The position numbers were made by a program, and so were the translations under genes. A DNA stretch of 64,000 nucleotides. Source: Bacteroidota bacterium. Lineage in GTDB: Bacteria; Bacteroidota; Bacteroidia; Bacteroidales; JAAUTT01. The stretch is from contig JAJYAG010000004.1 in NCBI GenBank assembly GCA_021779665.1, positions 1 through 64,000 on the forward strand. The letters are read 5' to 3'. Every line of letters begins with the position of its first letter. Within the stretch, counting starts at the first letter, position 1. This document shows positions 1,980 to 24,032 of this stretch, piece after piece. The notes under the pieces were generated by a model that saw only the letters and a program-made list of their open reading frames with translations, searched no databases and was not told the origin of the DNA.

Positions 1980-2040
1980 AAAACTGTTTATTTAAGTTAA
2001 ATATTCAACTACAAATAAACAGGGGCATGAATGCATACTT

Positions 2041-6981: not shown

Positions 6982-7206
6982 ATGCAAGTCATGCCAGAAA
7001 ATCACCTTAACTCAGTTGTAGCCACTACCTCCGGTCTCTGCGGAGGATTAGGCAAAGCATTAACAGCTCACCTGGTACTTACCAATATCACCTTCCAGGG
7101 AATTATTGAAGTTTCTTTCTATGCAGCCATTTCTGCATTGGTTGGATATGGAGTGAAGAAAGGTGTTGACAGTCTTGTAAATCGCTTTAAAAATCGCAAA
7201 AGATGA
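6982..7206 (+). CDS. Small membrane protein of the phage-like module
   Basis: A 74-residue protein of unknown family with one or two hydrophobic segments (LVLTNITFQGIIEVSFYAAI and SALVGYGV) and a strongly basic tail ending NRFKNRKR. It overlaps the next gene by four bases (ATGA), so the two are coupled. A short membrane anchor with a basic end would suit a virion membrane or scaffold protein, but no homology was recognised. Confidence 0.55.
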   Translation: MQVMPENHLNSVVATTSGLCGGLGKALTAHLVLTNITFQGIIEVSFYAAISALVGYGVKKGVDSLVNRFKNRKR

Positions 7207-7703
7207 ACAAGTGGCTTAAAATAGGCATTGCCGGAGGTTTGGTGTTGGGAGCTGTCAAGCTCTTTAAGATGAAGACTGTTTCGGAAAAGATGGTGAGCAA
7301 CCTTTCTAATCCTCGCATTCATAAAGTCGATTTAAAGGGAATTGCTTTCCGCACTGAAATCAAAATCCAAAACCCTACCAAAAACAGCATGTCTATTACT
7401 AAACCAGCCGTCACCCTTAGTACCAGTGGTAAGTATATTACCAGCAATAGCCCGGAACAAAAGAGCATAACCATTCAGCCATTAGCCACAACAACCATTG
7501 ATACGATTGAACTTAATATTGGTTGGACAGCTTTGGCCGGTTATGTAACCGGAATTATCACCAAAGCCCCAACGATTATTGCTGCCTTCAAGAAAAAAGA
7601 CCTGAATGCTATTGCCGCAGCCCTTGCAATTCCTATGGAAATGAAATATTCGCTTTATGCCAATGGTCTCTTTTACGAATCCGAACCACAAAAAATCATG
7701 TAA
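7203..7703 (+). CDS. LEA2/WHy-like beta-sandwich protein with N-terminal membrane anchor
   Basis: A 166-residue protein with an N-terminal hydrophobic segment (IGIAGGLVLGAVKLF). This is followed by a domain resembling the late-embryogenesis-abundant LEA_2/WHy fold: FRTEIKIQNPTKNSMSI, then an IQPLATTTIDTIELNI strand pattern. LEA2 domains are Ig-like sandwiches that sit at membranes. It overlaps the next gene (TAATG). In this module it may be a membrane-associated structural protein; that role is inferred from context. Confidence 0.55.
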   Translation: MNKWLKIGIAGGLVLGAVKLFKMKTVSEKMVSNLSNPRIHKVDLKGIAFRTEIKIQNPTKNSMSITKPAVTLSTSGKYITSNSPEQKSITIQPLATTTIDTIELNIGWTALAGYVTGIITKAPTIIAAFKKKDLNAIAAALAIPMEMKYSLYANGLFYESEPQKIM

Positions 7704-9559
7704 TGAGCGAATTGTTCAACATAGAAAGTATTACCAACGGATACCGCCCAATTCAGGACGGTAGCAGGTACGAACGTTTCTTTGCCCGCCCAGAGGATTC
7801 TGACCGCATTATTATTGAAGATGGCGAAGTAGATGAGACCGTTGACTTGATGAAAAAAGTAGTATGGAAGTACATCAACGACACTAAACAAATCGCAATT
7901 TATCTGAAGGGAAGTACACTCCGACAAACCTGTGAAAACATCTGGAATTTCCTTTATCACCACGTTCAGTATAAACTCGACAAAAAAGGATTGGAACAAC
8001 TTCGCCGCCCAAACCGTAGCTGGGTTGAACGCAAAACTGGAATTGATTGCGATTGCTTTTCTATTTTCGTTTCCAGCATCCTTACCAACCTTAAAATTCC
8101 ACACCGTTTCCGCATTACTAAGTACAACCGGGATGTGTACCAGCATGTGTATGTTGTTGTCCCCATTCCCGGTTCTGGCAAATACTATACGATTGACTGC
8201 GTCCTTAGTCAATTTAATTATGAAAAACCATTTAAACAACAAAAAGACTTCGATATGAGCTTAAAAGGAATTGATGTCGCTGTGCTGTCAGGTGCAGCCG
8301 ATGACGTGTTAGACCTGGTTTCCGGTTTCGAGGAACTGGAAGGATTGGATGGCCCGGATTACGACCGCACTATCCTGGAACACCTCATTAAAACAAGGAA
8401 CATGATCGCCCAGAATCCCAATCTGATTCGGAATTCGGACTACCCACCGGCATTCTTAAAAATGCTCGATTATGCCATCGACAACTGGAACACCCCTAAC
8501 CGGGAAAAAGCATTGGAAATCCTGGCTAAAAACGAAGATGCCCTGAACCGGCTCAATGGTTTTGACGGCGCTGACGACACAGAAATGGATGGCCTGGACG
8601 ATGAATTTGGAGACCTCGATGGATTGTCCGGTGCAGAAATCGAGCAGGAACTCAACGGCAAGAAACGCCCTGCCAAGAAAAAAGGCTTTTTTAAGAAAAT
8701 TGGACAAGCAGTGAAGAAAGTAGGCAAAGCAGCCGGCCAGGTTGCTAAGAAAGTTGGTAAAGCAGTAATCCGGTTCAACCCACTAACCATTTCTGCACGT
8801 ACCGGATTTTTATTGGCCATGAAGCTCAACCTAAAAAAAATGGCCTCGAAAATCAAATGGGGATATGCTACCAAGGAACAAGCCGCAGCCAAAGGAATAT
8901 CAGCACAGGAATGGGAGAAACAAAAGAACGCACTGGCTAAGGTTGAAAAGCTGTTTGCGGACAAACTGCAAGGTAAGAAAAGCGCACTCAAAAATGCAGT
9001 ATTAAAAGGCAAAGCAAAAGGGTTAAGCGGTTTGGATGAAGAAACAGAAATAACCGGTTTGGGGGTTGCCGCAGCTGCAACACTTGCTGCCGCTGTGCCG
9101 GTTATTACAGCCGCTCTGAAAATTTTACAAGATACAGGGGTTATGTCCAAACAGGAAGCCGAAAACATCGAATCGGAAGTTACTGCTAAAACCTCCGAAG
9201 CTGAAAAACTTGCTAACGACCCCGATATTAAAAACAGTGGGACAGAAACAACTGAATCATCATCTTCTTCTTCGGGCGAGAGTAGCTCCGATAGTTCATC
9301 GGATAGAGGAGGTTCAAGTGGAAGCACGGGAGGAGGCATCATTGGTTTTATAAAGAAGCAACCGCTCATTGCAATAGGAGGTGCTGCACTTGGAGTATGG
9401 GGTTTGTCAAAACTCCTTGGTGGAAAGAAATCATCCGGTCAAGGCGTGAGTGGGGTATCTGGTAGGAAACGCAAAAAGAGTAAAACAAAGAGTAAATCAC
9501 ATTCCGGGAACTCACGCAAAAAAGGTAATCGGAGACCCAAATCCATTACGCTCTCATAA
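7703..9559 (+). CDS. Transglutaminase-like cysteine protein with basic and membrane segments
   Basis: A 618-residue protein; the start at 7703 overlaps the previous stop as TAATG. Residues about 70-170 carry a transglutaminase-like triad: Cys116 in TGIDCDCFS, His148 in YQHVYVVV and Asp165 in YYTIDCVL. A Lys-rich amphipathic stretch follows at about 318-355 (KKKGFFKKIG, KKVGKAAGQVAKKVGKAV). Then come an Ala-rich hydrophobic segment near 455-475, a Ser-rich linker, another hydrophobic helix (PLIAIGGAALGVWGLSKLL) and a basic tail. It could be a virion maturation peptidase or cross-linker. Acidic EELEGLDG-type repeats link the parts. Confidence 0.6.
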   Translation: MSELFNIESITNGYRPIQDGSRYERFFARPEDSDRIIIEDGEVDETVDLMKKVVWKYINDTKQIAIYLKGSTLRQTCENIWNFLYHHVQYKLDKKGLEQLRRPNRSWVERKTGIDCDCFSIFVSSILTNLKIPHRFRITKYNRDVYQHVYVVVPIPGSGKYYTIDCVLSQFNYEKPFKQQKDFDMSLKGIDVAVLSGAADDVLDLVSGFEELEGLDGPDYDRTILEHLIKTRNMIAQNPNLIRNSDYPPAFLKMLDYAIDNWNTPNREKALEILAKNEDALNRLNGFDGADDTEMDGLDDEFGDLDGLSGAEIEQELNGKKRPAKKKGFFKKIGQAVKKVGKAAGQVAKKVGKAVIRFNPLTISARTGFLLAMKLNLKKMASKIKWGYATKEQAAAKGISAQEWEKQKNALAKVEKLFADKLQGKKSALKNAVLKGKAKGLSGLDEETEITGLGVAAAATLAAAVPVITAALKILQDTGVMSKQEAENIESEVTAKTSEAEKLANDPDIKNSGTETTESSSSSSGESSSDSSSDRGGSSGSTGGGIIGFIKKQPLIAIGGAALGVWGLSKLLGGKKSSGQGVSGVSGRKRKKSKTKSKSHSGNSRKKGNRRPKSITLS

Positions 9560-9599
9560 ATAGCAAATAAGTCAAAACATCTTTTAATAAACAACGATT

Positions 9600-10121
9600 A
9601 TGGCACAAAAAGAATCCAATTCTAAAGTAAAGCTCGATGCCAAAGCCATCATAGAAGAACTTAAAACACCTGGATTGATAATTCTTGGTATGGTAGGTGG
9701 AAACATGGCAGGTAAGCTTATCGACAAAGCGGTGAAGGTGGACGACACCGCTACCGGCTTCCAGGCAAAAGCCCTTATCAAACCTGTAATACAAATTACG
9801 GCAGGTGTGGGTGGTGCGCTCTTTTTAAAAGACAAAAACCTAAAACTCATTTGCTCCGGTGTGGCAGCAAGCGGTATTGCATCTACGGTTAAGGTATTCT
9901 TGAAAAAAGACATTCTGCAAGGTTTGACCAATTTTGCAGGATTAGGCGAAGCTGTAAATCAAGTGTTCCGTGAACCATTGAACCTTTCCATCGAACCCTA
10001 TAACCCGGATTTACCTCAGTTGCCCCCTTCTCAAATGGCAGCCTTGCCAGTTGAATATGAATCGGATATGTCAGGAGACTTAGGCGAATACACCGAAATC
10101 AAATCGGTGGAAATACTCTAA
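9600..10121 (+). CDS. Hypothetical membrane protein of the phage-like module
   Basis: A 173-residue protein I do not recognise. It has a Lys-rich start, Gly-rich hydrophobic segments (TPGLIILGMVGGNMAGKLI, then IQITAGVGGALFL and LICSGVAASGIAS), and a Pro-rich acidic C-terminus (NPDLPQLPPSQM). The hydrophobic pieces suggest two or three membrane passes. It follows the transglutaminase-like gene on the same strand and is closely followed by the gene at 10151. Confidence 0.55.
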   Translation: MAQKESNSKVKLDAKAIIEELKTPGLIILGMVGGNMAGKLIDKAVKVDDTATGFQAKALIKPVIQITAGVGGALFLKDKNLKLICSGVAASGIASTVKVFLKKDILQGLTNFAGLGEAVNQVFREPLNLSIEPYNPDLPQLPPSQMAALPVEYESDMSGDLGEYTEIKSVEIL

Positions 10122-10150
10122 AACATTATTAATCTTTAAAAATACCAGAA

Positions 10151-10840
10151 ATGATAACATTAGGAGAACTTGCAAATAGCGAACTCGATTTGATGGGTGC
10201 TATGACTGATGAGGAACTTTTAGGCGCATTAGAAGCCGCCTCTCAACAGGAAAGAAAGACTTTTATTCGTAGGATTAAACAACCTCGGCCTGCCAGCGGT
10301 CGTTCCGATTCCCGCAGTGAATTCGAACGCCGACTCCATCTGCTCCCGAAGGAAATACAGCAAGGGTTGGCTAACAAAACCCTTCAGGCAGTTGATGCTG
10401 CTTACTACGTTACCAAAAGCGTATCGTCCAACAAAATTATCAAAATGCTCAAGGACGATGATAACAAAACCGTTGGTATATCAAATATTTCCAGCGCAAA
10501 ACTCGAAAAAGGAAACATCATGCTCCTTAGTGGTATTGTGCTGCTGGCTTCTGTTGGTATTGCCAAGGCCGAAGAAGGCAAATACGAGCTGCTTCCCGAA
10601 ATCCTCCGCAACGGAGAGTTCGAGTTCAAAGCCAATGGTACTACCCTTGTTCCCCTTACTTCCAACGAAGTATTCGACTCCCAGGGAACTACCCGCCAAA
10701 AAGGGCTGTACAAGCTCGATAACCCAAAGATTATCTACGACCAGCAAGCAATGGAGCTGAACATTGAGTGGGGAGCAAACGCCCCTGAAAACACGTTCAT
10801 CAAAGTTGTTTTGCACGGTACGGCAGTTACCAAGTATTAA
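10151..10840 (+). CDS. Candidate structural protein: helical N-terminus, membrane segment, beta-rich C-terminus
   Basis: A 229-residue protein of no recognised family. Residues 1-110 are charged and helical (SELDLMGAMTDEELLGALEA, RRLHLLPKEIQQGL). A hydrophobic segment follows at about 120-136 (NIMLLSGIVLLASVGIA). The last 90 residues alternate strands and turns and end LNIEWGANAPENTFIKVVLH plus GTAVTKY. This build would suit a membrane-anchored jelly-roll capsid or capsid-associated protein; that is an inference from shape and context only. Confidence 0.5.
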   Translation: MITLGELANSELDLMGAMTDEELLGALEAASQQERKTFIRRIKQPRPASGRSDSRSEFERRLHLLPKEIQQGLANKTLQAVDAAYYVTKSVSSNKIIKMLKDDDNKTVGISNISSAKLEKGNIMLLSGIVLLASVGIAKAEEGKYELLPEILRNGEFEFKANGTTLVPLTSNEVFDSQGTTRQKGLYKLDNPKIIYDQQAMELNIEWGANAPENTFIKVVLHGTAVTKY

Positions 10841-10842
10841 TA

Positions 10843-11571
10843 ATGAGGCACGGTAGCCTATTTTCTGGGATTGGGGGCTTCGATCTGGCCGCTATATGGG
10901 CGGGTTGGGATAATATCTTTCAGGTCGAAGCCAACCCATTCTGTCAGCAAGTATTGACTAAGCATTTTCCACATGTCACGAAATATAAAGACATCCGGGA
11001 GTTCAACGGGAAAAAGTACAGGGGAGCAATTGATATACTTTCAGGCGGCTTCCCGTGCCAACCGTTTAGTGCTGCCGGCAAACGCAAAGGAAAGTCGGAC
11101 AACAGGTATCTCTGGCCCGAAATGCTTCGAGTTATCAAAGAAGTTCAACCACGCTGGGTACTGGCAGAAAACGTTTACGGGCTTGTTACTCTCAAAGGGG
11201 GGATGGTCCTCGAAACGGTTTGCGCTGATTTGGAAGGTTCAGGCTATGAAGTCCAACCGTATATTGTTCCGGCTTGTGCCATTGGCGCAATCCACAAAAG
11301 GGAAAGAATCTGGATACTGGCCCACGCCAACCACTATGGATTACAAAGGAAGCTGCCTCAAAATAGCAGGGAAACGAACAGGCTTTCTAAAGCATTTTCT
11401 TCACATGCGTTATGCCAGGACGAAAAGCAGCTTCCCACACCCTACGTTACTGGAGGCTATGATGGGATTCCCAACAGGATGGACAGAATTAAGACCCTCG
11501 GTAATGCCATCGTCCCACAGGTCGCATACGAATTCTTCAAAATAATTAATTATTGCGAGAAACAGCTATGA
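10843..11571 (+). CDS. C5-cytosine DNA methyltransferase, short form
   Basis: A 242-residue enzyme that would methylate cytosine C5 in DNA. Motif I is LFSGIGGFDLAA at residues 5-16, and the catalytic motif IV is GGFPCQPFSAAGKRKG near 67-82. Motif VI is AENVYGL near 108, motif VIII HKRERIWILAHA near 148, and motif X IKTLGNAIVPQVAYEFF near the end. The target-recognition region between VIII and X is very short. A 190-residue frame overlaps most of the gene in the +1 phase and itself looks conserved. No restriction enzyme lies nearby, so an orphan or anti-restriction role is likely. Confidence 0.88.
   Translation: MRHGSLFSGIGGFDLAAIWAGWDNIFQVEANPFCQQVLTKHFPHVTKYKDIREFNGKKYRGAIDILSGGFPCQPFSAAGKRKGKSDNRYLWPEMLRVIKEVQPRWVLAENVYGLVTLKGGMVLETVCADLEGSGYEVQPYIVPACAIGAIHKRERIWILAHANHYGLQRKLPQNSRETNRLSKAFSSHALCQDEKQLPTPYVTGGYDGIPNRMDRIKTLGNAIVPQVAYEFFKIINYCEKQL
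10973..11545 (+). CDS. Overlapping +1-frame protein inside the cytosine methyltransferase gene
   Basis: This frame lies wholly within the methyltransferase gene in the +1 phase and is open for 190 codons. Its product has patterns I associate with phage methyltransferase companion or target-recognition segments: GWSSKRFALIWKVQAMKSNR, LFRLVP, SGYWPTPTTMDYKG and LLEAMMGFPTGWTEL. Such ordered motifs are not expected by chance in a shadow frame. The start is uncertain (ATG at 10973 is only the first available). It may be a real dual-coding product or a trace of an ancestral frame. Confidence 0.4.
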   Translation: MSRNIKTSGSSTGKSTGEQLIYFQAASRANRLVLPANAKESRTTGISGPKCFELSKKFNHAGYWQKTFTGLLLSKGGWSSKRFALIWKVQAMKSNRILFRLVPLAQSTKGKESGYWPTPTTMDYKGSCLKIAGKRTGFLKHFLHMRYARTKSSFPHPTLLEAMMGFPTGWTELRPSVMPSSHRSHTNSSK

Positions 11572-11945
11572 ATGCTATCAAATATCAAATCGTCAAAGTC
11601 ACTGTTCCGGCAGCCGGGGCAACGGTTAATATCAATATCAACAGCGATAAACTTTACAAAAAGGTTACCGGGATATTGGTCACTGTGCCTTATGTGATGT
11701 CGTTTCTGAACAAGTCAACTCTTTCCTTATCTATCAACGACCAGGAGGTGTTCCCTGACGATTTCGAAGTTAAACTCATTACCTGCGATTCGTATGTTCC
11801 GACAAACGAGCGGTTCTATAAGCTCGAAGAAGAAGCAGACGGAAGTACCGTAAAGGGAAAGTTTAAGGATGGCGGAGCAATGAATGGTATCACCTACCCC
11901 TATACAGCTAACCTATACTTGAAACTCGAAGAAAAGAATTGGTAA
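11568..11945 (+). CDS. Beta-rich small protein 1 of a paralogous pair
   Basis: A 125-residue protein starting at ATG 11568, overlapping the methyltransferase stop as ATGA. It is rich in Val, Thr, Asn and alternating hydrophobics (KVTVPAAGATVNININSD, LYLKLEEKNW at the end) and has no membrane segment. Its layout resembles the next gene's product: a start with a Y-x-V/I-VPV strand, a central FxxxD strand and a GxxxG turn. Two adjacent beta-rich paralogues of about 125 residues could be single jelly-roll capsid proteins or fibre subunits. No sequence family was recognised. Confidence 0.55.
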   Translation: MNAIKYQIVKVTVPAAGATVNININSDKLYKKVTGILVTVPYVMSFLNKSTLSLSINDQEVFPDDFEVKLITCDSYVPTNERFYKLEEEADGSTVKGKFKDGGAMNGITYPYTANLYLKLEEKNW

Positions 11946-12331
11946 TGGAAACACCTGGGTACATAAAGTATGAGAAGTGGGCAATCATCCCGGTTACTGC
12001 AACTTCTAAAGCAGTGACCAGGATAGATGCGAAATTACCCGCCAACGCAGTTCATTGTACAGGAGTAGCCTTTACCATTTGCGACATCCAGGGAACATTC
12101 AACCCGGATTATATGGGTGAGATAAGCCTTTCGTTCAACAACCGAAAGAGCCATCCGCTCAACTTTCCGGTTGAATGTAAAACCAACCGATTTCGATTGG
12201 ATGAACTTATTCTGAAACTTGAAGAACCCGTCCGGGGTGGCTCTCATGTTACCGGATACTTCCGAAACCTGCTTAGTAATGCTTATCAGCTTAAAGTGTA
12301 TATCCAGTGTATCGCCTTAACAAAGCCTTAA
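11945..12331 (+). CDS. Beta-rich small protein 2 of a paralogous pair
   Basis: A 128-residue protein; its ATG shares one base with the preceding stop (TAATG). It starts YIKYEKWAIIPVTATSKAVT and ends with alternating strands (YQLKVYIQCIALTKP). It lines up loosely with the neighbour at 11568 in strand spacing and in the central FNNRKSHPLNF/INDQEVFPDDF element, which suggests an old duplication. The function is unknown; a structural role is inferred from the module. Confidence 0.55.
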   Translation: METPGYIKYEKWAIIPVTATSKAVTRIDAKLPANAVHCTGVAFTICDIQGTFNPDYMGEISLSFNNRKSHPLNFPVECKTNRFRLDELILKLEEPVRGGSHVTGYFRNLLSNAYQLKVYIQCIALTKP

Positions 12332-12332
12332 T

Positions 12333-12698
12333 ATGGACAGTCTAATCCTTGCATATATCTCGCAGCGTATGGCCGATTTGGGCTATGCAACATACACCTT
12401 CGAACCTTTTGTGGCAGTCCTTAACGATTGTCAAAAGGAGGTTCAAATCGAAGGGACTAACGAATATTACTACCTGCTCTCGAAAGACCTTGCTGCCGGA
12501 ACGGAAATCATTTCGGATAACAACTATTTCAAAGCCGAGGATTATTACGACAGCCTTGAGTTTGCCAAAACGCAGGAGTTCACTGGCCAGATAAAGTTGG
12601 GCTGCTCGAACTGGAAATGCGAACAGACCATTGTCCTGGAATTTATCCGTGTATTACCACAGATTGCAAGCGATGGAAAAGAACAAGTACACCCTTAA
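12333..12698 (+). CDS. Hypothetical protein, 121 residues
   Basis: I do not recognise this protein. It starts MDSLILAYISQRMADLGYAT, is acidic with many aromatic residues (NEYYYLLSKD, FKAEDYYDSLEF) and has a Cys pair near 90-94 (GCSNWKCEQ). It begins one base after the previous stop. Its end overlaps the start of the coiled-coil gene by 26 bases in another frame, so translation is probably coupled. Confidence 0.55.
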   Translation: MDSLILAYISQRMADLGYATYTFEPFVAVLNDCQKEVQIEGTNEYYYLLSKDLAAGTEIISDNNYFKAEDYYDSLEFAKTQEFTGQIKLGCSNWKCEQTIVLEFIRVLPQIASDGKEQVHP

Positions 12699-13527
12699 CC
12701 TGAGCAACATCCGCACAAAGATTCGCACCTACCAGGAGCAAGGGAAAGATGTGTTGTTTTCTGCTGTTTTCATTACCGGCAAGGAAAAGACAAAGCTCGT
12801 TGATCGTGCGCCGGTTGCACAGTTGTCACTCATAACCAAGAATCTTAAATGCGAGAACCCGGATAAAATTCGAATTGAGCTGTACGATGGGAAAGAAAGT
12901 CCTAATCCTCTTTGGTTGAAAGAACTGGTTTTGGCACAGCCTGAACCCGAAGTTGAAGCTTCAAGTTTTAAAGGTTTGGGAGAAGTGGAAATCAACCGCA
13001 TTGTAGATGAACGCTTCAGGGAACGCCAGCGTAACGCTGAATACGAAACTCTGAAAGAAAGGGTGATGGAATTGACCGAGGAAAACGAAGAACTACACGA
13101 TTCCATTGAAGAACTCGAAAATGAAAACTCCCGGCTCGAACAGGAACTTGAAGGAAAGAAGCAAATCAAGTATTACGCAGGAATGCTAGGCGATATTTTC
13201 GAGAGTTTCGGGATTTCGAAAGACCGGATTAAAAAGCCCATAGCCGAGCTGATGGGGATTAACGATACCGATGAAAAAGCCAAATCTCTTGAAACTAAAG
13301 CGGACAACTCCGGAATTGTGGATGAGCCGAAGTCTGCTTCTTCAACCGAGGAACAAAAACGTTCCGAAATCATCTCCCTTGTTGCCGAATACCTGAAAAC
13401 CACGACTAATCAAACGCTGGCCAATGTATTCAGCATCTTTTCGGAAATCGAGGCCGACAATTCAATTGCAGATAAAATCATTCAATATATCAACACCTTA
13501 AAAAACGAAGAACATGCAAAAGTTTGA
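12673..13527 (+). CDS. Coiled-coil protein of the phage-like module
   Basis: A 284-residue protein from ATG 12673. Residues 1-85 form a mixed domain. A linker holding SSFKGLGEVEINRIVDERF follows, then a strong coiled coil at about 120-160 (LTEENEELHDSIEELENENS, RLEQELEGKK). The C-terminal part is helical (FSIFSEIEADNSIADKIIQY). No family was recognised. An oligomeric structural or scaffold role is possible. It overlaps the next gene by 14 bases. Confidence 0.55.
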   Translation: MEKNKYTLNLSNIRTKIRTYQEQGKDVLFSAVFITGKEKTKLVDRAPVAQLSLITKNLKCENPDKIRIELYDGKESPNPLWLKELVLAQPEPEVEASSFKGLGEVEINRIVDERFRERQRNAEYETLKERVMELTEENEELHDSIEELENENSRLEQELEGKKQIKYYAGMLGDIFESFGISKDRIKKPIAELMGINDTDEKAKSLETKADNSGIVDEPKSASSTEEQKRSEIISLVAEYLKTTTNQTLANVFSIFSEIEADNSIADKIIQYINTLKNEEHAKV

Positions 13528-13702
13528 TTTTACAGTAATCATAGAAGCAGAAAACCGGGAAGAAGCCCGTGAAGTATTGCTTTCGATGTTCGACATTATG
13601 AAGACCATCCGCAGCGAGACATCCACCAAGGAATTCATTGAGTTTGGGACTAAGCTCAAAGCAAAGCCCTCACTGGTTAAAAAAGCTAAACTATTTATCT
13701 AA
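13514..13702 (+). CDS. Hypothetical 62-residue protein
   Basis: A small soluble protein with an alternating start (KFDFTVIIEAENREEAREVL) and a basic end (SLVKKAKLFI). It overlaps its neighbours on both sides (14 bases upstream and a shared base downstream), so it sits in one translational chain with them. No function can be assigned. Confidence 0.5.
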   Translation: MQKFDFTVIIEAENREEAREVLLSMFDIMKTIRSETSTKEFIEFGTKLKAKPSLVKKAKLFI

Positions 13703-14742
13703 TGGCTGCCCCAAAGAAGGACAAATATGAATTTCTGGACAATCCCAAGCGCATTCTTGTGGGAGGCGCAGTTATTGGTATTGGTGGTTTCTTGCTTTAT
13801 AAGCTGGGTCGGAAAATCATTACAGGTATGCAGAAACGCAATACCGAGAACCTTGCCGATGACAGTCCAGAAGTACGTCAGGCAATGGCATTGCGTTCTG
13901 CCATGAACCCATCGGGTGCATCCTGGATGATGTCCTTCGATACTACCAATACCAAAGCAATTTTTGATACTGCACCACAAATCAAAAAACTGGACGAAGT
14001 GTCTACAGCTTATCGAAAGCTTTATGATGACGACCTTTTAAAGAACCTGCAAAACGAATTGAGCGCTACCGATTACCAGAAGTTCCTCACTATGGTGTCG
14101 AGCAATCCTTCTAAATCGGGAGGCGCAGCACCTACAACCTTTGCCAAAAAGAACCAGTTGGTGGTGGCAAAAGCAGAGGTATTCCTGCGTACTTCGCCCG
14201 ATGCCAGTTATCACGGGGCAATTTATGAGTTTGCAGAGAAGAAAAACGTCATCCGTAAGGCTAAGGTCGGAGAATTTCTTGGGTATGCCACAGGAAAGCA
14301 AAGCTTCGATGTAAAGAACAATGTGAAGTTTATCGAAGTTGGTTATCTCGTCAAAAAGGAAAATCCACCAGCAGCCATGAAAGCCTATGCCGGGAAAAGT
14401 TATACCTATTGGGTTTCATCAGCTTCAACCTATGTAGAAATCTTCGCCTATTACAAGGATATGTGGAATAAATATCCGTCCACACAAAGTGAAGTTTCCT
14501 ACAAAAAACCTTTGGACTATTATTCTGGCGTATCGGGAGCTTTTTCGCAACCAGTAATTACAACAAAGTTTGTACATGTGCTGGATGATAAAATGCAACC
14601 CTATATCCCTGTAAAATCCGGGACACTTCTGGGCGAATACCTCATGTGCCTGAATACAGGCAAAACCAAGTATGTAAAATTCCGCACGGTGGACAATACC
14701 GAACGCTGGGTTTCAGCCGATGCAGTAAACATTAAATGCTAA
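13702..14742 (+). CDS. Membrane-anchored protein with possible SH3-like C-terminal domains
   Basis: A 346-residue protein with one N-terminal transmembrane helix (ILVGGAVIGIGGFLLYKLGR, residues 18-37). A helical region follows (YRKLYDDDLLKNLQNELSAT), then a beta-rich C-terminal half with two repeated pieces resembling bacterial SH3 folds: VFLRTSPDASYHG and GEFLGYATG, then PYIPVKSGTLLGEYL and RWVSADAVNI. SH3b domains bind cell-wall peptides. It is immediately followed by the transglycosylase, so the pair may act together at the cell wall. Confidence 0.55.
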   Translation: MAAPKKDKYEFLDNPKRILVGGAVIGIGGFLLYKLGRKIITGMQKRNTENLADDSPEVRQAMALRSAMNPSGASWMMSFDTTNTKAIFDTAPQIKKLDEVSTAYRKLYDDDLLKNLQNELSATDYQKFLTMVSSNPSKSGGAAPTTFAKKNQLVVAKAEVFLRTSPDASYHGAIYEFAEKKNVIRKAKVGEFLGYATGKQSFDVKNNVKFIEVGYLVKKENPPAAMKAYAGKSYTYWVSSASTYVEIFAYYKDMWNKYPSTQSEVSYKKPLDYYSGVSGAFSQPVITTKFVHVLDDKMQPYIPVKSGTLLGEYLMCLNTGKTKYVKFRTVDNTERWVSADAVNIKC

Positions 14743-15329
14743 AAGCTATGATACTGATTGAAAAATTACAACGCAACAAAGGCGAAAGCCCGGCAGAATT
14801 TGAACGGGTACTGCGGAATATTTGCAGCACACTTGGTATAAACCCCAACTGGTTAATGATGGTTATGTGGAGCGAAAGCCGGTTGAATGCCCAAGCTGTA
14901 AATAAGCAACCAGGGGACACCGATAATGCACAAGTTCGTGCAGCATCAAGAGCTACCGGATTAATTCAGTTTATGCCCGATACTGCTTTGAACCTTGGTA
15001 CAACCACCAAAGCCCTTTATGCCATGAGCGCTATTGACCAACTCGGTTATGTGTACAAATATTTCAAGCCCTGGGCTGGAAGGATTAAAAGCTATTTTGA
15101 TTTGTACCTGGTTACGTTCTTCCCGGATGCAGTTGGTCGGCCAGATGATTATATCCTTCAGACCAAAAAGCTTTCAGCCGCCACCATTGCTAAGCAAAAC
15201 CCCTTTTTTGATGTGAACAAGGACGGAAAACTCACAGTTGGCGAGATAAAACGCCGGATGTACGAATCTATCCCCAAAGCAATTGTGGCGGATGTTGTCT
15301 CTGAGATAGAAAAAAAAAGTTTGAGTTAG
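14736..15329 (+). CDS. Lytic transglycosylase (SLT-like)
   Basis: A 197-residue enzyme that would cleave the glycan strands of peptidoglycan. The catalytic Glu is probably in MVMWSESRLNAQAVN (about residue 47). The Gly-Leu-Ile-Gln-Phe-Met-Pro block follows at about 72-79 (RATGLIQFMPDTALNLG), and the later YVYKYF motif is also typical. A second in-frame ATG lies at 14748. The 3' end runs into nine A residues (15310-15318); a -1 slip there would add a transmembrane tail. It overlaps the stop of the SH3-like gene. The role is local wall opening, as in phage entry or release or in secretion. Confidence 0.8.
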   Translation: MLKAMILIEKLQRNKGESPAEFERVLRNICSTLGINPNWLMMVMWSESRLNAQAVNKQPGDTDNAQVRAASRATGLIQFMPDTALNLGTTTKALYAMSAIDQLGYVYKYFKPWAGRIKSYFDLYLVTFFPDAVGRPDDYILQTKKLSAATIAKQNPFFDVNKDGKLTVGEIKRRMYESIPKAIVADVVSEIEKKSLS

Positions 15330-15415
15330 GGATTGGCGGATTTATCCTGCTTGGAATCGGAGCCTGGTATTTCTATAACAAATTAAAAAAGAAGAAGAAA
15401 GGGAAACGGAAATGA
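15302..15415 (+). other. Possible -1 frameshift extension of the transglycosylase: membrane helix plus Lys-rich tail
   Basis: In the -1 frame after the A9 run, the sequence reads on past the transglycosylase stop to a TGA at 15413. It encodes ELGIGGFILLGIGAWYFYNK followed by a run of Lys and Arg. This frame has no ATG, GTG or TTG of its own, so the peptide can only be made by slippage at the A run or by a non-standard start. The product would be a membrane-tethered form of the enzyme. Confidence 0.45.
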
Positions 15416-15419
15416 GGAA

Positions 15420-15632: not shown

Positions 15633-15660
15633 TTTCAATTTTTCTGTAAAGGTAACTAAA

Positions 15661-15846
15661 ATGAAAACATCGAAACGGTACTCCATTACCATTGTTGCCG
15701 GGATAGTCCTGGCTGGTCTGGCTTTTCTTTCGGTCCTGAAAAGCATGGAAGGGTTGGCTTCGGCATGTGTGGGCGGCATTTTGACCATCCTCACCACCTA
15801 TATCTGGGGAGAAACCAAACGACCATCAAATACCAAAGAGCCATGA
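15661..15846 (+). CDS. Small two-helix membrane protein (holin-like)
   Basis: A 61-residue protein from ATG 15661 with two hydrophobic segments (ITIVAGIVLAGLAFLSVL and LASACVGGILTILTTYIWG), a short charged start and a polar end. Size and topology match class II phage holins, and it lies between the transglycosylase and a coiled-coil membrane protein. That position supports a lysis cassette. The homology is not certain. It overlaps the next start by four bases (ATGA). Confidence 0.55.
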   Translation: MKTSKRYSITIVAGIVLAGLAFLSVLKSMEGLASACVGGILTILTTYIWGETKRPSNTKEP

Positions 15847-16436
15847 AAGAAAAAGCACTATCCACAATTATATTTCTGTTTATCTGCTTTATTGGCTTCG
15901 AGTATGCTAAAATGTACTACACTGAGAAACGGGAACGGGAAAGAATTACCGAGAGCTTTAAGGCATCCGAGCAGAAGCTGACCTATTATAAAACCCAAAA
16001 CGGACAATTGGCTGCAAAGAATCAAACGCTCCAACTCCGCTATAACGAGGTACAACAAATCTTTCCTAAAGTACTGGATGAAATTCGAAATCTAAATATC
16101 AAGCCAAAGCATGTAACCCAATATTCTGAAACCGTGGTTAAACAGGAAAAGGAAATTCTGACCAAGCTTAGGGATAGTCTTATATGTGACACCATTCATG
16201 CGAAAATTTTCAATTACCAGGATAGTTTCTATACGGTCAAAGGCATTGCAGTAGGAGATTCTCAGAAGGTACATATTTCCTCACTGGACAGTTTGGTGCA
16301 GGTGGTTTATAAAGGTGAACGATTGCGCCCTTGGCTTTGGTTCTTCTCACGTCGGAAACTGGAACAGGTCATTACCGCTAAGAATCCGAATAGTACGATT
16401 TTGTATAACAGAACAATTCAAATAGTAAAAAAATGA
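15843..16436 (+). CDS. Rz/DUF6549-like membrane coiled-coil protein
   Basis: A 197-residue protein from ATG 15843. It has one N-terminal transmembrane helix (STIIFLFICFIGFEYAKMYY), then a coiled-coil periplasmic part (RERERITESFKASEQKLTYY, TQNGQLAAKNQTLQLRYNEV) and a C-terminal globular end containing LRPWLWFFSRRKLEQ. The pattern is that of DUF6549-type proteins of Bacteroidetes phages and of inner-membrane spanins, which finish lysis. It follows the holin-like gene directly. The spanin role is inferred. Confidence 0.55.
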   Translation: MKEKALSTIIFLFICFIGFEYAKMYYTEKRERERITESFKASEQKLTYYKTQNGQLAAKNQTLQLRYNEVQQIFPKVLDEIRNLNIKPKHVTQYSETVVKQEKEILTKLRDSLICDTIHAKIFNYQDSFYTVKGIAVGDSQKVHISSLDSLVQVVYKGERLRPWLWFFSRRKLEQVITAKNPNSTILYNRTIQIVKK

Positions 16437-16654
16437 AAAAGGCTAAAACTAAGACACGGAAGACTAAAACCAAAAAGGCAAAAGCGACCAGTACCCGCAA
16501 AACGACCCGAAAAAAAGTAGGTAATTGTAAGAAAACAACTGCCCGTAAAGCAACAGCCAAAAAGAAACCGGTAACCAGCAAAGCCCGGATGAAGCGCACC
16601 ATTGAGAGCATCAAGTCAAGTGTAAAAGTGTTGGAAAAGGAAATAGGGAAATAA
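16433..16654 (+). CDS. Histone H1-like Lys-rich protein
   Basis: A 73-residue extremely basic protein, about half Lys and Arg, with Thr-Lys and Ala-Lys repeats (KKAKTKTRKTKTKKAKATS, KPVTSKARMKRTIESIK). It resembles bacterial and viral histone H1-like tails that condense DNA. Its start overlaps the previous stop by four bases. In a virus-like module it could package genome DNA. Low complexity prevents any finer call. Confidence 0.65.
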   Translation: MKKAKTKTRKTKTKKAKATSTRKTTRKKVGNCKKTTARKATAKKKPVTSKARMKRTIESIKSSVKVLEKEIGK

Positions 16655-16657
16655 TCT

Positions 16658-17428
16658 ATGGCCGGGAAAAACCAATATCAGCTTAACAAGGAAATAGAAT
16701 CCTTTATCCTGGACAAGGACAAAAGGAATGAAAGCTATTCCCAAACTGATATTGAGTTTATCCAAAAGTATGAAGGCTCAGGTGGGCAAGGCAGCAAAGG
16801 GGCAACTGGTGAAGGGATTTTGTATGAGTTTTATACGCCCGGCTATGTGGTCAAACTCATGTGGGAACTGGCTTTTAGGTTTGGATTTGACAAATCAGGA
16901 ACAGTGCTTGAACCAAGCATTGCTACGGGACGGCTCATTGAGCCAGCTCCCGATAAAACCAAATGTGTGGGTTTTGAAATCAACTCTATCTCTGCACGTA
17001 TTGCAGAAATCAGTTTTCCAGGAGCAACCATCTATCGTGGTTATTTCGAAACCGCTTTCATGCAGCCTGAAAGGTTTACGAAAAGGTTACCACTTAGTCA
17101 GCTAACCTGGCTGAAAGAATACCCTTTCTCGTTGGTCATTGGCAACCCACCTTATGGAAAATACAGGAACAAATACAGTTCCTATTTTTCTACGCCTAAA
17201 ATACCTCAGATTGAGCAGTTCTTTATGTACTATGGGTTGCAATTATTGAAACCGGGTGGTTTGCTAATCTATCTGACCAGTTCCAATTTCCTGCGTAATG
17301 GCCTTACCTACAACAAGGCAAAAGATGAAATTGGCAAGTTGGCAGATTTGTTGGATGCGTACCGTTTGCCCCCGGTTTTCCGCTTTTCGGAAGTCCCCAC
17401 AGATATTATTGTTTTAAAACGCAAGTAA
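16658..17428 (+). CDS. N6-adenine DNA methyltransferase
   Basis: A 256-residue enzyme of the gamma class. SAM-binding motif I is SGTVLEPSIATGRLIEPA near 86-103, and the catalytic motif IV is SLVIGNPPYGKY near 164-175. A motif VIII-like YLTSSNFLRNG follows. The N-terminal YEFYTPGYVVKLMW segment is typical of helicase-linked or phage methylases. It lies upstream of the large SNF2 helicase, an arrangement seen in DarB-like or anti-restriction systems. No cognate endonuclease is present, so self-protection of element DNA is likely. Confidence 0.85.
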   Translation: MAGKNQYQLNKEIESFILDKDKRNESYSQTDIEFIQKYEGSGGQGSKGATGEGILYEFYTPGYVVKLMWELAFRFGFDKSGTVLEPSIATGRLIEPAPDKTKCVGFEINSISARIAEISFPGATIYRGYFETAFMQPERFTKRLPLSQLTWLKEYPFSLVIGNPPYGKYRNKYSSYFSTPKIPQIEQFFMYYGLQLLKPGGLLIYLTSSNFLRNGLTYNKAKDEIGKLADLLDAYRLPPVFRFSEVPTDIIVLKRK

Positions 17429-17429
17429 T

Positions 17430-17663
17430 ATGGCTAAGAATGATTTGGAATATCAATTACGCCTTGAAATAAAGGAACAATTGAGTAGGGTGACAAAGGC
17501 AAATAGCCCAAACATCTATTCGGCCATATATAATACTAATGGCAATTTAAATGTGAATGGTTATGCCCGCATTGAAGGTAAACTGATTCAGAAAATCATT
17601 TCCGGCATGCTTACTCCTGCGGCAGCTGTTCCGCAGCTCGAACAGGAACTCGATTTATTATAA
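17430..17663 (+). CDS. Hypothetical 77-residue protein
   Basis: A small soluble protein of unknown family, with start LEYQLRLEIKEQLSRVTKAN and end AAAVPQLEQELDLL, mostly helical with a polar centre. It begins one base after the adenine methyltransferase stop and shares a base with the next start (TAATG). No function can be assigned. Confidence 0.5.
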   Translation: MAKNDLEYQLRLEIKEQLSRVTKANSPNIYSAIYNTNGNLNVNGYARIEGKLIQKIISGMLTPAAAVPQLEQELDLL

Positions 17664-18124
17664 TGAATGGACGAACTCCGGCATATTACAGGGCAAGGCT
17701 CGATACGTTCCGGTATTTTCTGCATGAAGAATTACCGGGACATCCTGTTTACGATACAGGTCAAAAGAATAGCCCGCTGGAATTATTAAAACAAGGGTTC
17801 GTTCATCCAGACCTTAAAGAAAGGTTTGAGAGCCGGATTGAAAGTTTTTCAAAGCTGGGAATCAAGGTTTCGGATACACCGCTCTCATTTACTGAGCTAT
17901 GTTCTTTTAATACATGGTTTGCTATACACCCTGAAAAGGTTGCTGGAATTGAATTGGTAACTACCAGTATAAACTTTCCAATAACGATTAAAGGGACGAA
18001 AGAGGATATTGAAAAGACGATTACCAAAGGCTTAGGAAACGATAAAGACAAACGTATTCGTATTGCTCAGGTAAAGGCGGCTGCAAAACTCAAAATTTTG
18101 ATGTTGTTAAAATTGAACCCATGA
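17663..18124 (+). CDS. Hypothetical protein with the RIRIA...AKLK C-terminal tail
   Basis: A 153-residue protein of unknown family. The body has an LDTFRYFLHEELPGHPVYDT start and a central SFTELCSFNTWFAIHPEKV segment. Its last 25 residues, DKDKRIRIAQVKAAAKLKIL plus MLLKLNP, closely match the tail of the SNF2 helicase encoded next (DDEKRIRIARIKAQAKLKML). That suggests a shared docking or packaging signal. Its stop lies within the 17-bp inverted repeat at 18120-18177. Confidence 0.55.
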   Translation: MNGRTPAYYRARLDTFRYFLHEELPGHPVYDTGQKNSPLELLKQGFVHPDLKERFESRIESFSKLGIKVSDTPLSFTELCSFNTWFAIHPEKVAGIELVTTSINFPITIKGTKEDIEKTITKGLGNDKDKRIRIAQVKAAAKLKILMLLKLNP

Positions 18125-18177
18125 AACATCCATGATACAAAAACACAAAATGACATGTACATCATGGATGTTCCATG
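18120..18177. repeat. Long inverted repeat before the SNF2 helicase gene
   Basis: The arms CATGAAACATCCATGAT (18120-18136) and ATCATGGATGTTCCATG (18161-18177) pair at 16 of 17 positions around a 24-base loop. No T-run follows, so it does not look like a standard terminator. It lies 30 bases before the helicase start and may be an operator or an mRNA element that sets helicase level apart from upstream genes. Confidence 0.6.
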
Positions 18178-18207
18178 AGACCAATAATTTAAAATAAATA
18201 TGTGCGA

Positions 18208-21200: not shown

Positions 21201-22056
21201 ACGTGAACTTAGCCGTGCCAATTCCAATCTATCACAGGTAAACAAAGTGAAAGAAGCAATTAGCCAATACCTTACCGATAAGGATGAACTGGTGCAATGG
21301 ATTAACCAGTTTTATAACGATATGCTTGCCAAGTCCTGGGTGTTCGATAATGAGAAAGTCGAAAAGAAAATCTCAGAATACAAAAATGTCTCAGACGAAA
21401 AAGAACAAGTCAAAAAGATAAAGGACTACCAGAAGAAAAGTGAAGCCTTGAAAGCAGATATTGAAAAAATACAGACCAGCTCATCTGTTTCAGATAATGA
21501 TTTGTTAGAATGCGCCCGCAAGATTCAGCGGGAAAGCCAGTATTTCGGTCACTACTGGATTGTAAACGAGTTCAAGGAATCCATGACCAACGTTTATAAA
21601 ATTGAGCGCACCATCCTCAAACCTAAACGCCTTAGCATTTTTGATGACATGAACGGTTTGGAAAGCGAGCTGAAGAAAGATGTAATGAATGCCGAAGCTA
21701 AACTCACAAACTACAAGGGCGGTCAGCATGGAGAACAATCCAAGCGTTTTCATGAATTGTTCAAAGAAATCGAAGCCAAAAAGGAAACTCTTGCGGTAAA
21801 AGGCAAATCGCCAAAGGAACGGGCTGAGGATTTTGCAAAACTCAACTACTTGCTTCAATACCTCAAAGACGATTACGACCCGGAAACCTGTGTTTTTCCA
21901 GAACCAACGGATAAACCGGGCTATTGCCGGACGAACACAAAGCAACCAGGAATACCCATTTCGCCCAAACCTGATTCAGATGATGAAAAACGCATCCGCA
22001 TTGCCCGGATTAAGGCACAAGCCAAACTCAAAATGCTCGAACTTTTAAAAGTATAA
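18208..22056 (+). CDS. Large SNF2/DEAH-family helicase of mobile-element type
   Basis: A 1282-residue protein from ATG 18208, with a GTG two codons earlier. After an N-terminal region of about 350 residues come the helicase motifs. These are GVGKT near 378, VIDEAHR near 537, LLTATPFTNSPLEIYSMLS near 590, IGTATIREGIDLQKRG near 882 and QLEGRIWRQGNE near 915. A long charged C-terminal region ends DDEKRIRIARIKAQAKLKML. Proteins of this kind sit beside N6-methylases in phages and plasmids and are linked to anti-restriction (DarB-like) or DNA translocation. The tail is shared with the protein at 17663. A packaging or entry role is possible but unproven. Confidence 0.8.
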   Translation: MKTNTLSGIDGLASLGELRPNLRKAIYDNKSIVAKVLKQSERFAGLGFVEGKKVTFPDVVKMYNEGISEAEITAWVWYKRKQGVPMTHWNKIYKIADSDLSTLVKSGAMFVCGKEFIPLPIYSFGNMYERRDQLMQDKEHIAKTYGKDVFENHLKVVTEAIPKQLSVTESDPKERPIIMAISELVRNKELLSIRSVRPEFMDTENAEQLTKVNGKISVKRDSSSAKYKVIRLRFDGETDYSLRDVFVKWLYTLQQADFDKSNAIDIAEYYLYNKPLKDDEMTSDQKAELKVNARNEGEKLFSRFLHEVLTPEDQKRLDEIWNRMYNAQSDINHKRVPVGFECSSRFKSGMLQITPIQREGVAFFEALGSGICAFDVGVGKTMTAIINIATNIYSGKCKRPLVVVPKPTYKKWIGEIIGYTDKNTKEFVPGVLSYTDIKLNDWSNLGTGIKEKLNFSKQVPENSITLVTYEGFKQIGFSGNVSEDLFTELVNILGQSAEKSARDAEIDYQKYREKIGMGEKNTVCDIDTLGFDYLVIDEAHRCKNVFEQVKSDDEGNKRYNITSAVSETGIKAFFHANYIQRTYGNNVMLLTATPFTNSPLEIYSMLSLVAYESMRRNGIYHINAFFDTFVLPTVEWTANYKEEIVEKEVIKSFTNRLILQKLIYNHILYKTGEEAGVKRPVKVNLPKIYDTSPEGKTLKLSPAKQVLTYIEPTVKQRRNQQAIVSLAQSATSGKLNMGDLFRALAYSLDNALSPYLYVGNPDRPENYKEFVEESPKILFACECCRTVKEYHESLAKNLPKDAPQILKEVSGQVLYMNRGKEYFKLIKEYLEKEIGYQKNVLYNNTRFDEVEIIDSSISDIKKENVKEAFLAGVVKIIIGTATIREGIDLQKRGTVIYNLYPDWNPTDIRQLEGRIWRQGNEFAFIRSVMPLVQDSMDVFVFQKLEEKTGRINDIWFKADRGNVLDVESLDPQEVKLALITDVVRITALYFDEERREVERELSRANSNLSQVNKVKEAISQYLTDKDELVQWINQFYNDMLAKSWVFDNEKVEKKISEYKNVSDEKEQVKKIKDYQKKSEALKADIEKIQTSSSVSDNDLLECARKIQRESQYFGHYWIVNEFKESMTNVYKIERTILKPKRLSIFDDMNGLESELKKDVMNAEAKLTNYKGGQHGEQSKRFHELFKEIEAKKETLAVKGKSPKERAEDFAKLNYLLQYLKDDYDPETCVFPEPTDKPGYCRTNTKQPGIPISPKPDSDDEKRIRIARIKAQAKLKMLELLKV

Positions 22057-22058
22057 CC

Positions 22059-24032
22059 ATGTACCAGGAGAAAAAAGAAATCGTATTGTTTGGGGTTGAC
22101 CCGAAGCCATTAAAACCGTTTGTCCCTGAAATCAAAATCAGGATGAATAAGGGAAAGGTTTTTGATGTAAATAAGGTCACAACTTCAAAGGAAGTATATG
22201 AAATACTGAAACGAATCTTTGGGCGTAATCCTATCCAGGAGAATTTCGTGATGCTGCTGTTTAACCGGGCAAATAAGCTGATAGGTTATTACAAACACAC
22301 CATTGGTTCAACTTCTGCCACTATTGTGGATATACCAATGCTAATAGGTTTGGCAACAAAAGCCCTTGCCCAGGGCATTGTAATTTCTCATAACCACCCA
22401 TCAGGCACACTAACCCCATCCGACCCTGACAGGGAACTAACCAGGAATATTTCACAAGCCCTTAAAACAGTAAAGATAAACCTGCTCGACCATCTCATAT
22501 ATACCAACGATGGCTATTACTCTTTTGCAGATGAAGGTACACTTAACGGAATTAACAACAAACCTATGATAACAGTAGAAAATATCATGTCGGAATATCC
22601 AGGTATTGACCAGGCTATTTTGCCCGATGCCTTAAAGAAAGATGAATTTGAGTTCATCCGGGAGAACATTGACCTGTATAACGATGATGAAACTATCAAA
22701 AAGTACATTGATACGTTTGTGGAAAAGCTCAATGAAGTCATTAATAAGCATACGCCTGAAAAGAAAGTTAAGGAGAAGAAGTCCAAGTCTCCGAAAGAAC
22801 CCGATGTTGAGAAGAGTTCTACTGAAGAAACTACTACTCCAGTTGAAAAAGTAAGCCTGGAGGTTTCCTTTATCAAACGATATGTTGGATTACATGGGAA
22901 AACCAAGGATAAATCCCAAATTCTGAACCTTCTTAACTCGCTTCAAAAAGCCATTATTGAAAAACGTATCCGCAAGACATCGGTTTATTCCAGGGAAATT
23001 GAAAATATCCAGGCACAGTTAATCAAATGCTACAACCAAATGGGCAATACTATCAAGGTTAACCTGGACGAAGATACCCTGGATAAATACACTACCATAG
23101 CTGAAAGTCAAAAGACGATGCTTTCGGTTACTTACATCAAGCAATATATCAGCATTCATGGGAAAAAGGATGTAAAGGAGAAAGCCAAGGCATTGTTAAG
23201 CCGGATTGAGAAAGCCATTGAATCCGGTAAGATTCCTGAAAACTGCCCTTACTGGAACGAAATACAGGAAATCAAATCTTCTCTGGAGAGTTATTTGGCA
23301 AACAAGTCTAAAGTTCCTGTAATTACCGAAAATACCTTAAATGGCATCATGTCCTGGATGGTTAGGCGGCAACAAAAAAAGAAAGTAGCCAAATATCTCC
23401 AAAAGATTTACGAAACGGAAAGAGGTTTACGGGGAGTTGAAGCAGAACAAGAACCAAATCTGAACGAAGTTCCAGAACCTATCGTAATTTCAAGTTCGGA
23501 GTTGGCCGGAATGGACTTTGAAACCATTGGATTAAAAGGCAAATACAAAGATTTAATAGGCGACCCTTCGGTAGGCTTTTCGGCAATGGTATTTGGATTA
23601 CCCAAAAGTGGTAAATCAACCCTGTGTATCGACTTTGCTAAATATTTAGCCGAAAATCATGGAAAAGTTTTGTATGTTGCCATTGAGGAAGGTTTTGGTT
23701 ATACCCTCAAAGAAAAGTTTGAACGCCTTGGAGCTATCCATCCCAACTTAATTATTGCAGAAAAAATCCCCGATGATTTATCTCCCTACCAATTCGTTTT
23801 TATTGATTCGGTTAGCAAGGCTAAACTAACCAGTCAGGCTTTAACCAAACTCAGAAAAGATAACCCCCAAACTGCTTTTATATTTATTTTCCACACCACT
23901 AAGGAGGGCAATTTCCGGGGACAGCAGGATTTCGCCCACGATGTGGATGTGATTATAAATGTTGAAAACGGTATAGCCAAATCAAATGGTAGATTTGGAG
24001 TTGGTGGGTCATTGTCAATATTTGGTGATTAA
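22059..24032 (+). CDS. RadC/JAB - repeat - RecA-like ATPase fusion
   Basis: A 657-residue composite protein. Residues about 30-165 are a RadC-type JAB/MPN domain with the metal motif ISHNHPSG and SDPDRELT near 108-127. Two repeats of about 65 residues follow, near 270-335 (VSFIKRYVGLHGKTKDKSQI) and 360-425 (VTYIKQYISIHGKKDVKEKA). The C-terminus is a RecA/KaiC-like ATPase with Walker A GLPKSGKSTL near 513, Walker B FVFIDSVS near 587 and a FIFHTTKEGNFRGQQDF motif. It starts two bases after the helicase stop and probably works with it. Its stop overlaps the convergent HesB gene. Confidence 0.7.
   Translation: MYQEKKEIVLFGVDPKPLKPFVPEIKIRMNKGKVFDVNKVTTSKEVYEILKRIFGRNPIQENFVMLLFNRANKLIGYYKHTIGSTSATIVDIPMLIGLATKALAQGIVISHNHPSGTLTPSDPDRELTRNISQALKTVKINLLDHLIYTNDGYYSFADEGTLNGINNKPMITVENIMSEYPGIDQAILPDALKKDEFEFIRENIDLYNDDETIKKYIDTFVEKLNEVINKHTPEKKVKEKKSKSPKEPDVEKSSTEETTTPVEKVSLEVSFIKRYVGLHGKTKDKSQILNLLNSLQKAIIEKRIRKTSVYSREIENIQAQLIKCYNQMGNTIKVNLDEDTLDKYTTIAESQKTMLSVTYIKQYISIHGKKDVKEKAKALLSRIEKAIESGKIPENCPYWNEIQEIKSSLESYLANKSKVPVITENTLNGIMSWMVRRQQKKKVAKYLQKIYETERGLRGVEAEQEPNLNEVPEPIVISSSELAGMDFETIGLKGKYKDLIGDPSVGFSAMVFGLPKSGKSTLCIDFAKYLAENHGKVLYVAIEEGFGYTLKEKFERLGAIHPNLIIAEKIPDDLSPYQFVFIDSVSKAKLTSQALTKLRKDNPQTAFIFIFHTTKEGNFRGQQDFAHDVDVIINVENGIAKSNGRFGVGGSLSIFGD

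Follow-up and report, generated by a model that had tools for sequence, protein, structure and literature searches.

What kind of element is encoded by the dense block of genes at 6982-24032 of contig JAJYAG010000004.1, from a Bacteroidota bacterium of the order Bacteroidales? The window, meaning the whole 64,000-nucleotide stretch that was analyzed, contains in this block approximately 20 intact plus strand genes that overlap or nearly do so (Table 1), as an earlier reading made from the sequence only had described. That sequence-only reading proposed a tailless, perhaps membrane-containing virus of jelly-roll type, and homologies to virion proteins of phage SSIP-1 now support it. The block is, with a probability of about 0.86, the integrated genome of a tailless virus of the SSIP-1 lineage, spanning approximately 19.5 kb from an integrase near 4.5 kb to position 24,032. 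Direct support comes from homology to four SSIP-1 structural proteins, predicted jelly rolls, gene order, mobility between replicons and patchy distribution. Genes, products and families of the block (the module) are named here by their first position.

SSIP-1 is a tailless, membrane-containing phage with a triangulation number of T=49, a circular double-stranded DNA genome of 44 kb and two types of capsid protein (PMC6260650, PMC6356626), and its record annotates gp34, gp40 and gp43-gp48 as structural. It is the only phage that matched the window transglutaminase protein (28% identity over 142 amino acids, E 4e-5). With gp46 as the query, SSIP-1-like proviruses turned up in 15 of the 395 genomes searched from the phylum (loci L237-L254; genomes G348, G364, G250 and others); these share gp40, gp43, gp44, gp45/46, gp47 and gp48, and many also have gp33, gp34 and gp54. 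SSIP-1-side profiles were built from these proviruses, and each window family was compared with eight target profiles by hhalign. The transglutaminase family matched gp34 (E 2.5e-15, probability 98.5%), the 10151 family matched gp45/46 (E 2.5e-8, probability 95%, with the seed set; E 6.9e-6, probability 85%, with the enlarged set) and the 9600 family matched gp44 (E 4.5e-6, range 1e-6 to 5e-6), in each case as the best of the eight targets. The ATPase part of 22059 matched gp40 directly by BLASTP (25% identity over 178 amino acids, E 2e-17), and gp33 was the best, weak target of the coiled-coil 12664 family (E 9e-4). The profile E values are those of single comparisons, of which about 200 were made; after correction by that factor the links to gp34, gp45/46, gp44 and gp40 stay significant. 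In a first hhalign round, against single SSIP-1 proteins, the capsid links had been no more than suggestive (E 1.5e-3 to 3e-3), and the capsid link became firm only once the SSIP-1-like proviruses added homologs on the SSIP-1 side. As judged by these alignments, four window products are homologous to the SSIP-1 structural proteins gp34, gp44, gp45/46 and gp40.

This homology of core genes to virion proteins already contradicts the view that the block is a conjugative or integrative Bacteroidota element without a capsid. Genes for RadC, N6-methylase and SNF2 helicase are of kinds that occur in such elements, and to the right of the block there are metal-resistance genes and another integrase, but Pfam and PHROG scans of 6982-24032 matched no relaxase, coupling protein or type IV secretion system gene, the sequence-only reading having likewise seen no relaxase and no type IV secretion gene, and we consider a conjugative origin very unlikely.

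The likeness to SSIP-1 encompasses the capsid protein, the transglutaminase-fold protein, a membrane protein and the ATPase, and the gp44-gp45/46 neighborhood has been kept. SSIP-1 differs in its 43.8-kb circular genome, its two gp45-type genes and its giant gp43, whereas the window module is compact and integrated, with an annexin-like gene, an SNF2 helicase, a RadC fusion and another overall gene order. The SSIP-1 virion itself is tailless, with T=49 and an internal membrane. The giant virion protein gp43 (L029:26863-33822) contains the methylase motif NPPF and a ParB-like stretch, is related to large proteins adjoining the ATPase in P13 and G312b, and is possibly a DarB-like protective protein. 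As a counterpart of the window methylase and helicase, in the manner of P1 DarB, gp43 was rejected, having no significant BLASTP match with window proteins; a DarB-like role would be an analogy only, drawn from a PHROG DarB-like match.

The sequence-only reading had set structure prediction as a check beforehand, and both candidates that were modeled are predicted to be single jelly rolls. AlphaFold2 models made from alignments of 48 (10151) and 43 (11568) sequences each have a mean predicted local distance difference test score of 93 and one jelly roll per chain. In the 10151 model, a helical arm at the N terminus precedes a jelly roll at approximately residues 77-229, and the best structural matches of the model are with capsid proteins of membrane viruses, namely those of Sulfolobus polyhedral virus 1 (SPV1; Z 8.8, 148 residues aligned, 3.6 Å), PBCV-1 (Z 8.6), EhV-201 (Z 8.4) and PRD1 (P3, Z 8.1), with Z values of 6.6-6.9 for the capsid proteins of SH1, HHIV-2 and P23-77. 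Because nonviral jelly rolls (furin/Kex2, PHM) also reach Z 6-7, the predicted fold supports a capsid role and on its own is no proof of it. The 11568 model is an eight-strand jelly roll with generic matches only (PHM, the p24 GOLD domain and others, Z up to 8), and its predicted capsid role is therefore based only on position, paralogy and predicted fold. The profiles of the 11568 and 11945 products, which the sequence-only reading had recognized as beta-rich paralogs, merge over their homologs. From the models and this paralogy, the module encodes small single jelly-roll proteins of two kinds, 10151 and the 11568/11945 pair. PDB sequence searches with 10151 and 11568 returned no significant matches, and the phage catalogs searched (50,697 phage records, and PHROGs with stray weak matches only) contained no relative of the window capsid protein. 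A BFVD match, I1ZBH9 (211 residues, TM 0.43-0.46), has the same length as SSIP-1 gp46.

Double jelly-roll viruses (PRD1, PM2, FLiP) have two jelly rolls per capsid chain, whereas the 10151 and 11568 models have one each. The vertical single jelly-roll viruses (P23-77, SH1, HHIV-2, HCIV-1) encode two small single jelly-roll proteins side by side, as does the module, with fold matches to module proteins of Z ~6.6-7.3; however, no sequence relation to them was detected, and their A32/HerA-type ATPase is absent from the module. SPV1 (Portogloboviridae), the best structural match of the 10151 model, is an archaeal virus, and the likeness seen is that of the capsid fold. A remnant of a tailed phage might be suspected from the SLT domain, which matches like domains inside tail proteins, and from distant relatives of the ATPase in Bacteroides phage records. 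That the capsid candidates are predicted jelly rolls already contradicts this explanation, and the Pfam and PHROG scans of 6982-24032 gave no convincing capsid, portal, terminase, HK97 or tail match (the coiled coil had weak scaffold-protein matches), in line with the tailed-phage hallmarks having been reported missing; we accord a tailed-phage remnant almost no likelihood.

The transglutaminase protein has relatives on Persicobacter plasmids and in several Bacteroidota genomes. A scan of viral contigs with the single protein found nothing, and an alignment query was needed: the alignment-based genome scan gave 292 loci, of which 80 were kept, nearly all in Bacteroidota-type records, and viral contigs added 11. 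Gene families were built over 108 loci. The recurring order is LEA-like membrane protein, transglutaminase, Gly-rich membrane protein, 10151, one or two jelly rolls, 12333, coiled coil and 13702. This order, for which a search in other Bacteroidota had been proposed, was seen in approximately 90 loci across the phylum and is therefore far beyond chance; the 10151 family is present in 97 of the 108 loci. The closest relative is the Bacteroidales metagenome-assembled genome (MAG) Cfx3-06 (G685), with core genes 45-94% identical. Two loci, L098 and L115, are on contigs filed under Thalassovita and Rickettsiales MAGs; their modules are close to those of Fulvivirga, and the filing is probably binning contamination.

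An alternative in which the module consists of fixed chromosomal genes is contradicted by its patchiness and mobility. The capsid gene was found in 16 of 295 relatives, approximately 5% of the genomes sampled from the order of the host, and was missing from all four of the other host-genus genomes searched. Some genomes carry two or more module copies. Two plasmids of Persicobacter sp. JZB09, of 47.6 kb and 632 kb, have a 14-kb segment in common (94.5% identity), which starts ~300 bases 5' of the LEA-like gene and ends at the ATPase stop codon, and the flanks are mostly unrelated. The two copies correspond over just the module, which therefore moves as a unit. The Persicobacter plasmids L030, L031 and L032 (47-53 kb) carry the module, at least L032 having annotated Rep and ParA genes, and may be phage-plasmids.

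The extent of 6982-24032 given by the sequence-only reading stands at its right end, where the last module gene is followed by an oppositely oriented Fe-S protein gene. The left start does not, since the integrase at 4544 and the small gene at 6622 have counterparts beside the module in relatives. In G687, an integrase 39% identical to that of the window adjoins the module behind tRNA-Ser, and in G696 a more distant integrase lies between tRNA-Pro and the module; tRNA adjacency occurs in a minority of the scanned loci and is not counted as evidence. The AT skew is approximately +0.12 to +0.19 from 8 kb onward and mostly near zero or negative outside the block, and the GC content of the block is higher than that of its surroundings.

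Only one genuine Walker A protein is encoded by the module, the C-terminal part of 22059. The fusion of RadC to an ATPase was correctly recognized in the sequence-only reading, which called it RadC-RecA; the ATPase is rather of RadA/RecA type, its profile matching RadA (E 2.5e-15) and RecA in a PDB profile search. The ATPase family is present in all 18 of the module-bearing genomes tested. Among the SSIP-1 proteins, gp40 alone has a clear Walker A ATPase motif; a motif-like string in gp41 sits in the C-terminal tail and looks spurious. No FtsK/HerA ATPase was found in the window module or in SSIP-1. Its absence from the module, formerly held to weaken the viral idea, is real but no longer weighs against a virus because in SSIP-1, too, the only P-loop protein is of RecA/RadA type. 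Within the module, the ATPase of 22059 is the sole candidate motor, with a putative packaging role; a role in replication or recombination is possible, since distant relatives occur in other phage records.

The sequence-only reading had missed the annexin-like character of 13702. Pfam Annexin PF00191 matches 21 of 29 members of the family at E <= 0.01 (best 2.8e-9), the family profile matches annexin VI in PDB (E 1e-27), and the family has an N-terminal membrane helix. The window copy is degenerate (Annexin E 0.019, 15.5 bits vs a cut-off of 25) and has lost the GxGT calcium motif. When 395 genomes of the phylum were scanned, the Annexin model matched three places in two genomes, all three inside these modules, and in ten named carriers six of seven annexin matches lie in or adjoining modules, the two matches in G699 being located relative to the module ATPase, from which they lie ~5.5 kb away. 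A 2014 survey of bacterial annexins names Aquimarina agarilytica ZC1 and Marinilabilia salmonicolor JCM 21150 (PMC3894181). Both strains carry modules (loci L090, L093), and the surveyed annexins of these two strains are likely the module proteins. The survey treats bacterial annexins as cellular proteins, and the word "phage" is absent from its text (PMC3894181). The annexin repeats of bacterial annexins (PMC3894181) also occur in the 13702 family, and the module group carries many of the so-called bacterial annexins.

Table 1. Genes of the predicted provirus in the window, with the basis of each assignment.
Position	Strand	Product	Basis or remarks
4544-5794	-	tyrosine integrase, likely provirus integrase	Pfam Arm-DNA-bind_5 / Phage_int_SAM_5 / Phage_integrase; element membership inferred
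6622-6870	+	small protein adjoining integrase, upstream of module	67% identity in G685, 43% in G687
6982-7206	+	small single-helix membrane protein, module gene 1	homologs at same place: G685 76%, G687 44%, G689 35%
7203-7703	+	LEA_2-like protein, N-terminal membrane helix	weak Pfam LEA_2; directly 5' of transglutaminase gene in nearly all loci
7703-9559	+	transglutaminase-fold protein, counterpart of SSIP-1 gp34	Pfam DUF553 E 4e-6; profile-profile vs gp34
9600-10121	+	Gly-rich helical membrane protein, counterpart of SSIP-1 gp44	profile match; same position relative to capsid gene
10151-10840	+	predicted major capsid protein, single jelly roll, counterpart of SSIP-1 gp45/gp46	AlphaFold2, structure comparison, profiles
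10843-11571	+	C5-cytosine DNA methyltransferase	Pfam E 2e-48; in this copy inserted between capsid-type genes
11568-11945	+	predicted second capsid-type protein, 8-strand single jelly roll	AlphaFold2
11945-12331	+	paralog of 11568 product	two families' profiles merge; as a rule two copies per locus
12333-12698	+	conserved module protein, no assigned role	family at same position in 76 loci
12664-13527	+	coiled-coil scaffold-like protein, possible counterpart of SSIP-1 gp33	family in >80 loci
13514-13702	+	small conserved protein	G685 94%, G692 37% identity
13702-14742	+	membrane-anchored annexin-like protein	family-level Pfam Annexin and PDB profile
14736-15329	+	SLT lytic transglycosylase	Pfam E 2e-7
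15765-16436	+	membrane protein, PF20186 (DUF6549), weakly spanin-like	Pfam E 2e-40; PHROG spanin E 3.5e-4
16433-16654	+	Lys-rich basic protein, possibly DNA-binding	composition only
16658-17428	+	N6-adenine DNA methyltransferase, Eco57I-like	Pfam E 5e-11; G685 90% identity
17430-17663, 17663-18124	+	two small conserved genes	G685 82%, G687 32-36% identity
18202-22056	+	SNF2-family helicase	Pfam; G685 92%, G687 59% identity
22059-24032	+	RadC domain fused to RecA/RadA-type ATPase, last gene of unit	Pfam, BLASTP vs gp40

Among the remaining genes, Cys116, His148 and Asp165 of the transglutaminase-fold protein are invariant in the alignment of homologs, in accord with its having been described as a transglutaminase-like cysteine protein, and Pfam bears out the transglycosylase, the two methyltransferases and the SNF2 helicase of that description. 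The C5 methylase gene is not at this position in the closest relatives, including G685. PADLOC matches of the methylases and the helicase were set aside as generic. The spanin-like label of 15765 survives as a weak match, although the true start of this gene is probably near 15843, judged from the closest relative, whereas nothing beyond a Lys-rich composition was found for the supposed histone-like protein 16433. At the left edge of the window, a thiamine pyrophosphate riboswitch (2028-2122, minus strand) lies 5' of thiamine genes and represents chromosomal context. To the right of the provirus, 24029-59120 encodes a P-type ATPase, ArsP-type permeases, a sodium/bile-acid-type symporter, DsbD and a TonB-type receptor, and is probably a separate metal-resistance island; a second integrase (59264-60523) lies at a distance of 54 kb from the first, with which it shares 76% identity.

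From these genes we infer particle formation, a membrane, a packaging role and each step of a viral cycle. The integrase would insert and excise the genome, and the jelly-roll proteins 10151 and 11568/11945 would build the capsid lattice. The membrane proteins 6982, 7203 and 9600 may organize an internal membrane together with the membrane-anchored annexin-like 13702, and the coiled-coil protein 12664 could scaffold assembly. The transglutaminase-fold protein would form part of the virion and may cross-link other proteins or process them. The transglycosylase and spanin-like genes would open the cell, the methyltransferases and SNF2 helicase would protect or process viral DNA, and the RecA/RadA-type ATPase would be the one candidate for a motor that drives packaging or delivery.

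Several points weigh against an SSIP-1-like provirus. No particle has been seen from the window or from any Bacteroidota module. The best target of the 11568/11945 families, gp47, is only weak (E 7e-3 to 2e-2), and enlarging the window-side capsid profile alone gave no stronger link to gp45. Neither the window edges nor the tRNA-adjacent modules show a convincing attachment-site repeat, and the left border near 4.5 kb is for this reason placed by the integrase. A compact module without a clear replication initiator could also be defective or helper-dependent. It is conceivable that the block has SSIP-1-like ancestry and now forms a domesticated or satellite particle, used for gene transfer or dependent on a helper, since the core module measures just ~15-17 kb, lacks an obvious replication initiator, rides on plasmids of which one has annotated Rep and ParA genes, and occurs in two or more copies in some genomes. 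However, the patchy distribution, the lack of the module in congeneric genomes and the edge integrase in several hosts fit a mobile virus, lysis genes have been kept, copies on two replicons are 94% identical, and the PRD1 genome is of similar size, ~15 kb (PMC6260650). A satellite or domesticated particle is unlikely, and a provirus of the SSIP-1 lineage is the more plausible explanation.

Judged from its genes, the window element would represent a branch of the SSIP-1 lineage that is compact and temperate and carries an annexin gene, and it may form particles. We advance more tentatively, at somewhat less than even odds, the broader proposal that it belongs to a large unrecognized Bacteroidota group of temperate tailless membrane viruses of which SSIP-1 is the only known member, in which the RecA/RadA-type ATPase moves DNA instead of an FtsK/HerA motor and a virus annexin shapes the membrane, and which is the source of most Bacteroidota annexins. 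Our literature searches, with most subscription papers outside their scope, found no link of SSIP-1 to Bacteroidota proviruses and nothing on vertical jelly-roll viruses in Bacteroidota or on tailless Bacteroidota prophages. SSIP-1, an orphan since 2012, is still unclassified in the NCBI taxonomy, and a review notes that almost nothing in GenBank resembles it (PMC6356626). The modules give this orphan a large family, seen in approximately 5% of the genomes sampled. Its cultured carriers include Aquimarina agarilytica ZC1, Marinilabilia salmonicolor JCM 21150, Fulvivirga kasyanovii JCM 16186, Taibaiella soli and Puia dinghuensis. Because the phage catalogs searched contain no relative of the window capsid protein, surveys of Bacteroidota viruses probably miss this group. 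The modules may explain the odd, scattered distribution of bacterial annexins, and they raise the question of whether a RecA-type ATPase can act as a packaging motor.

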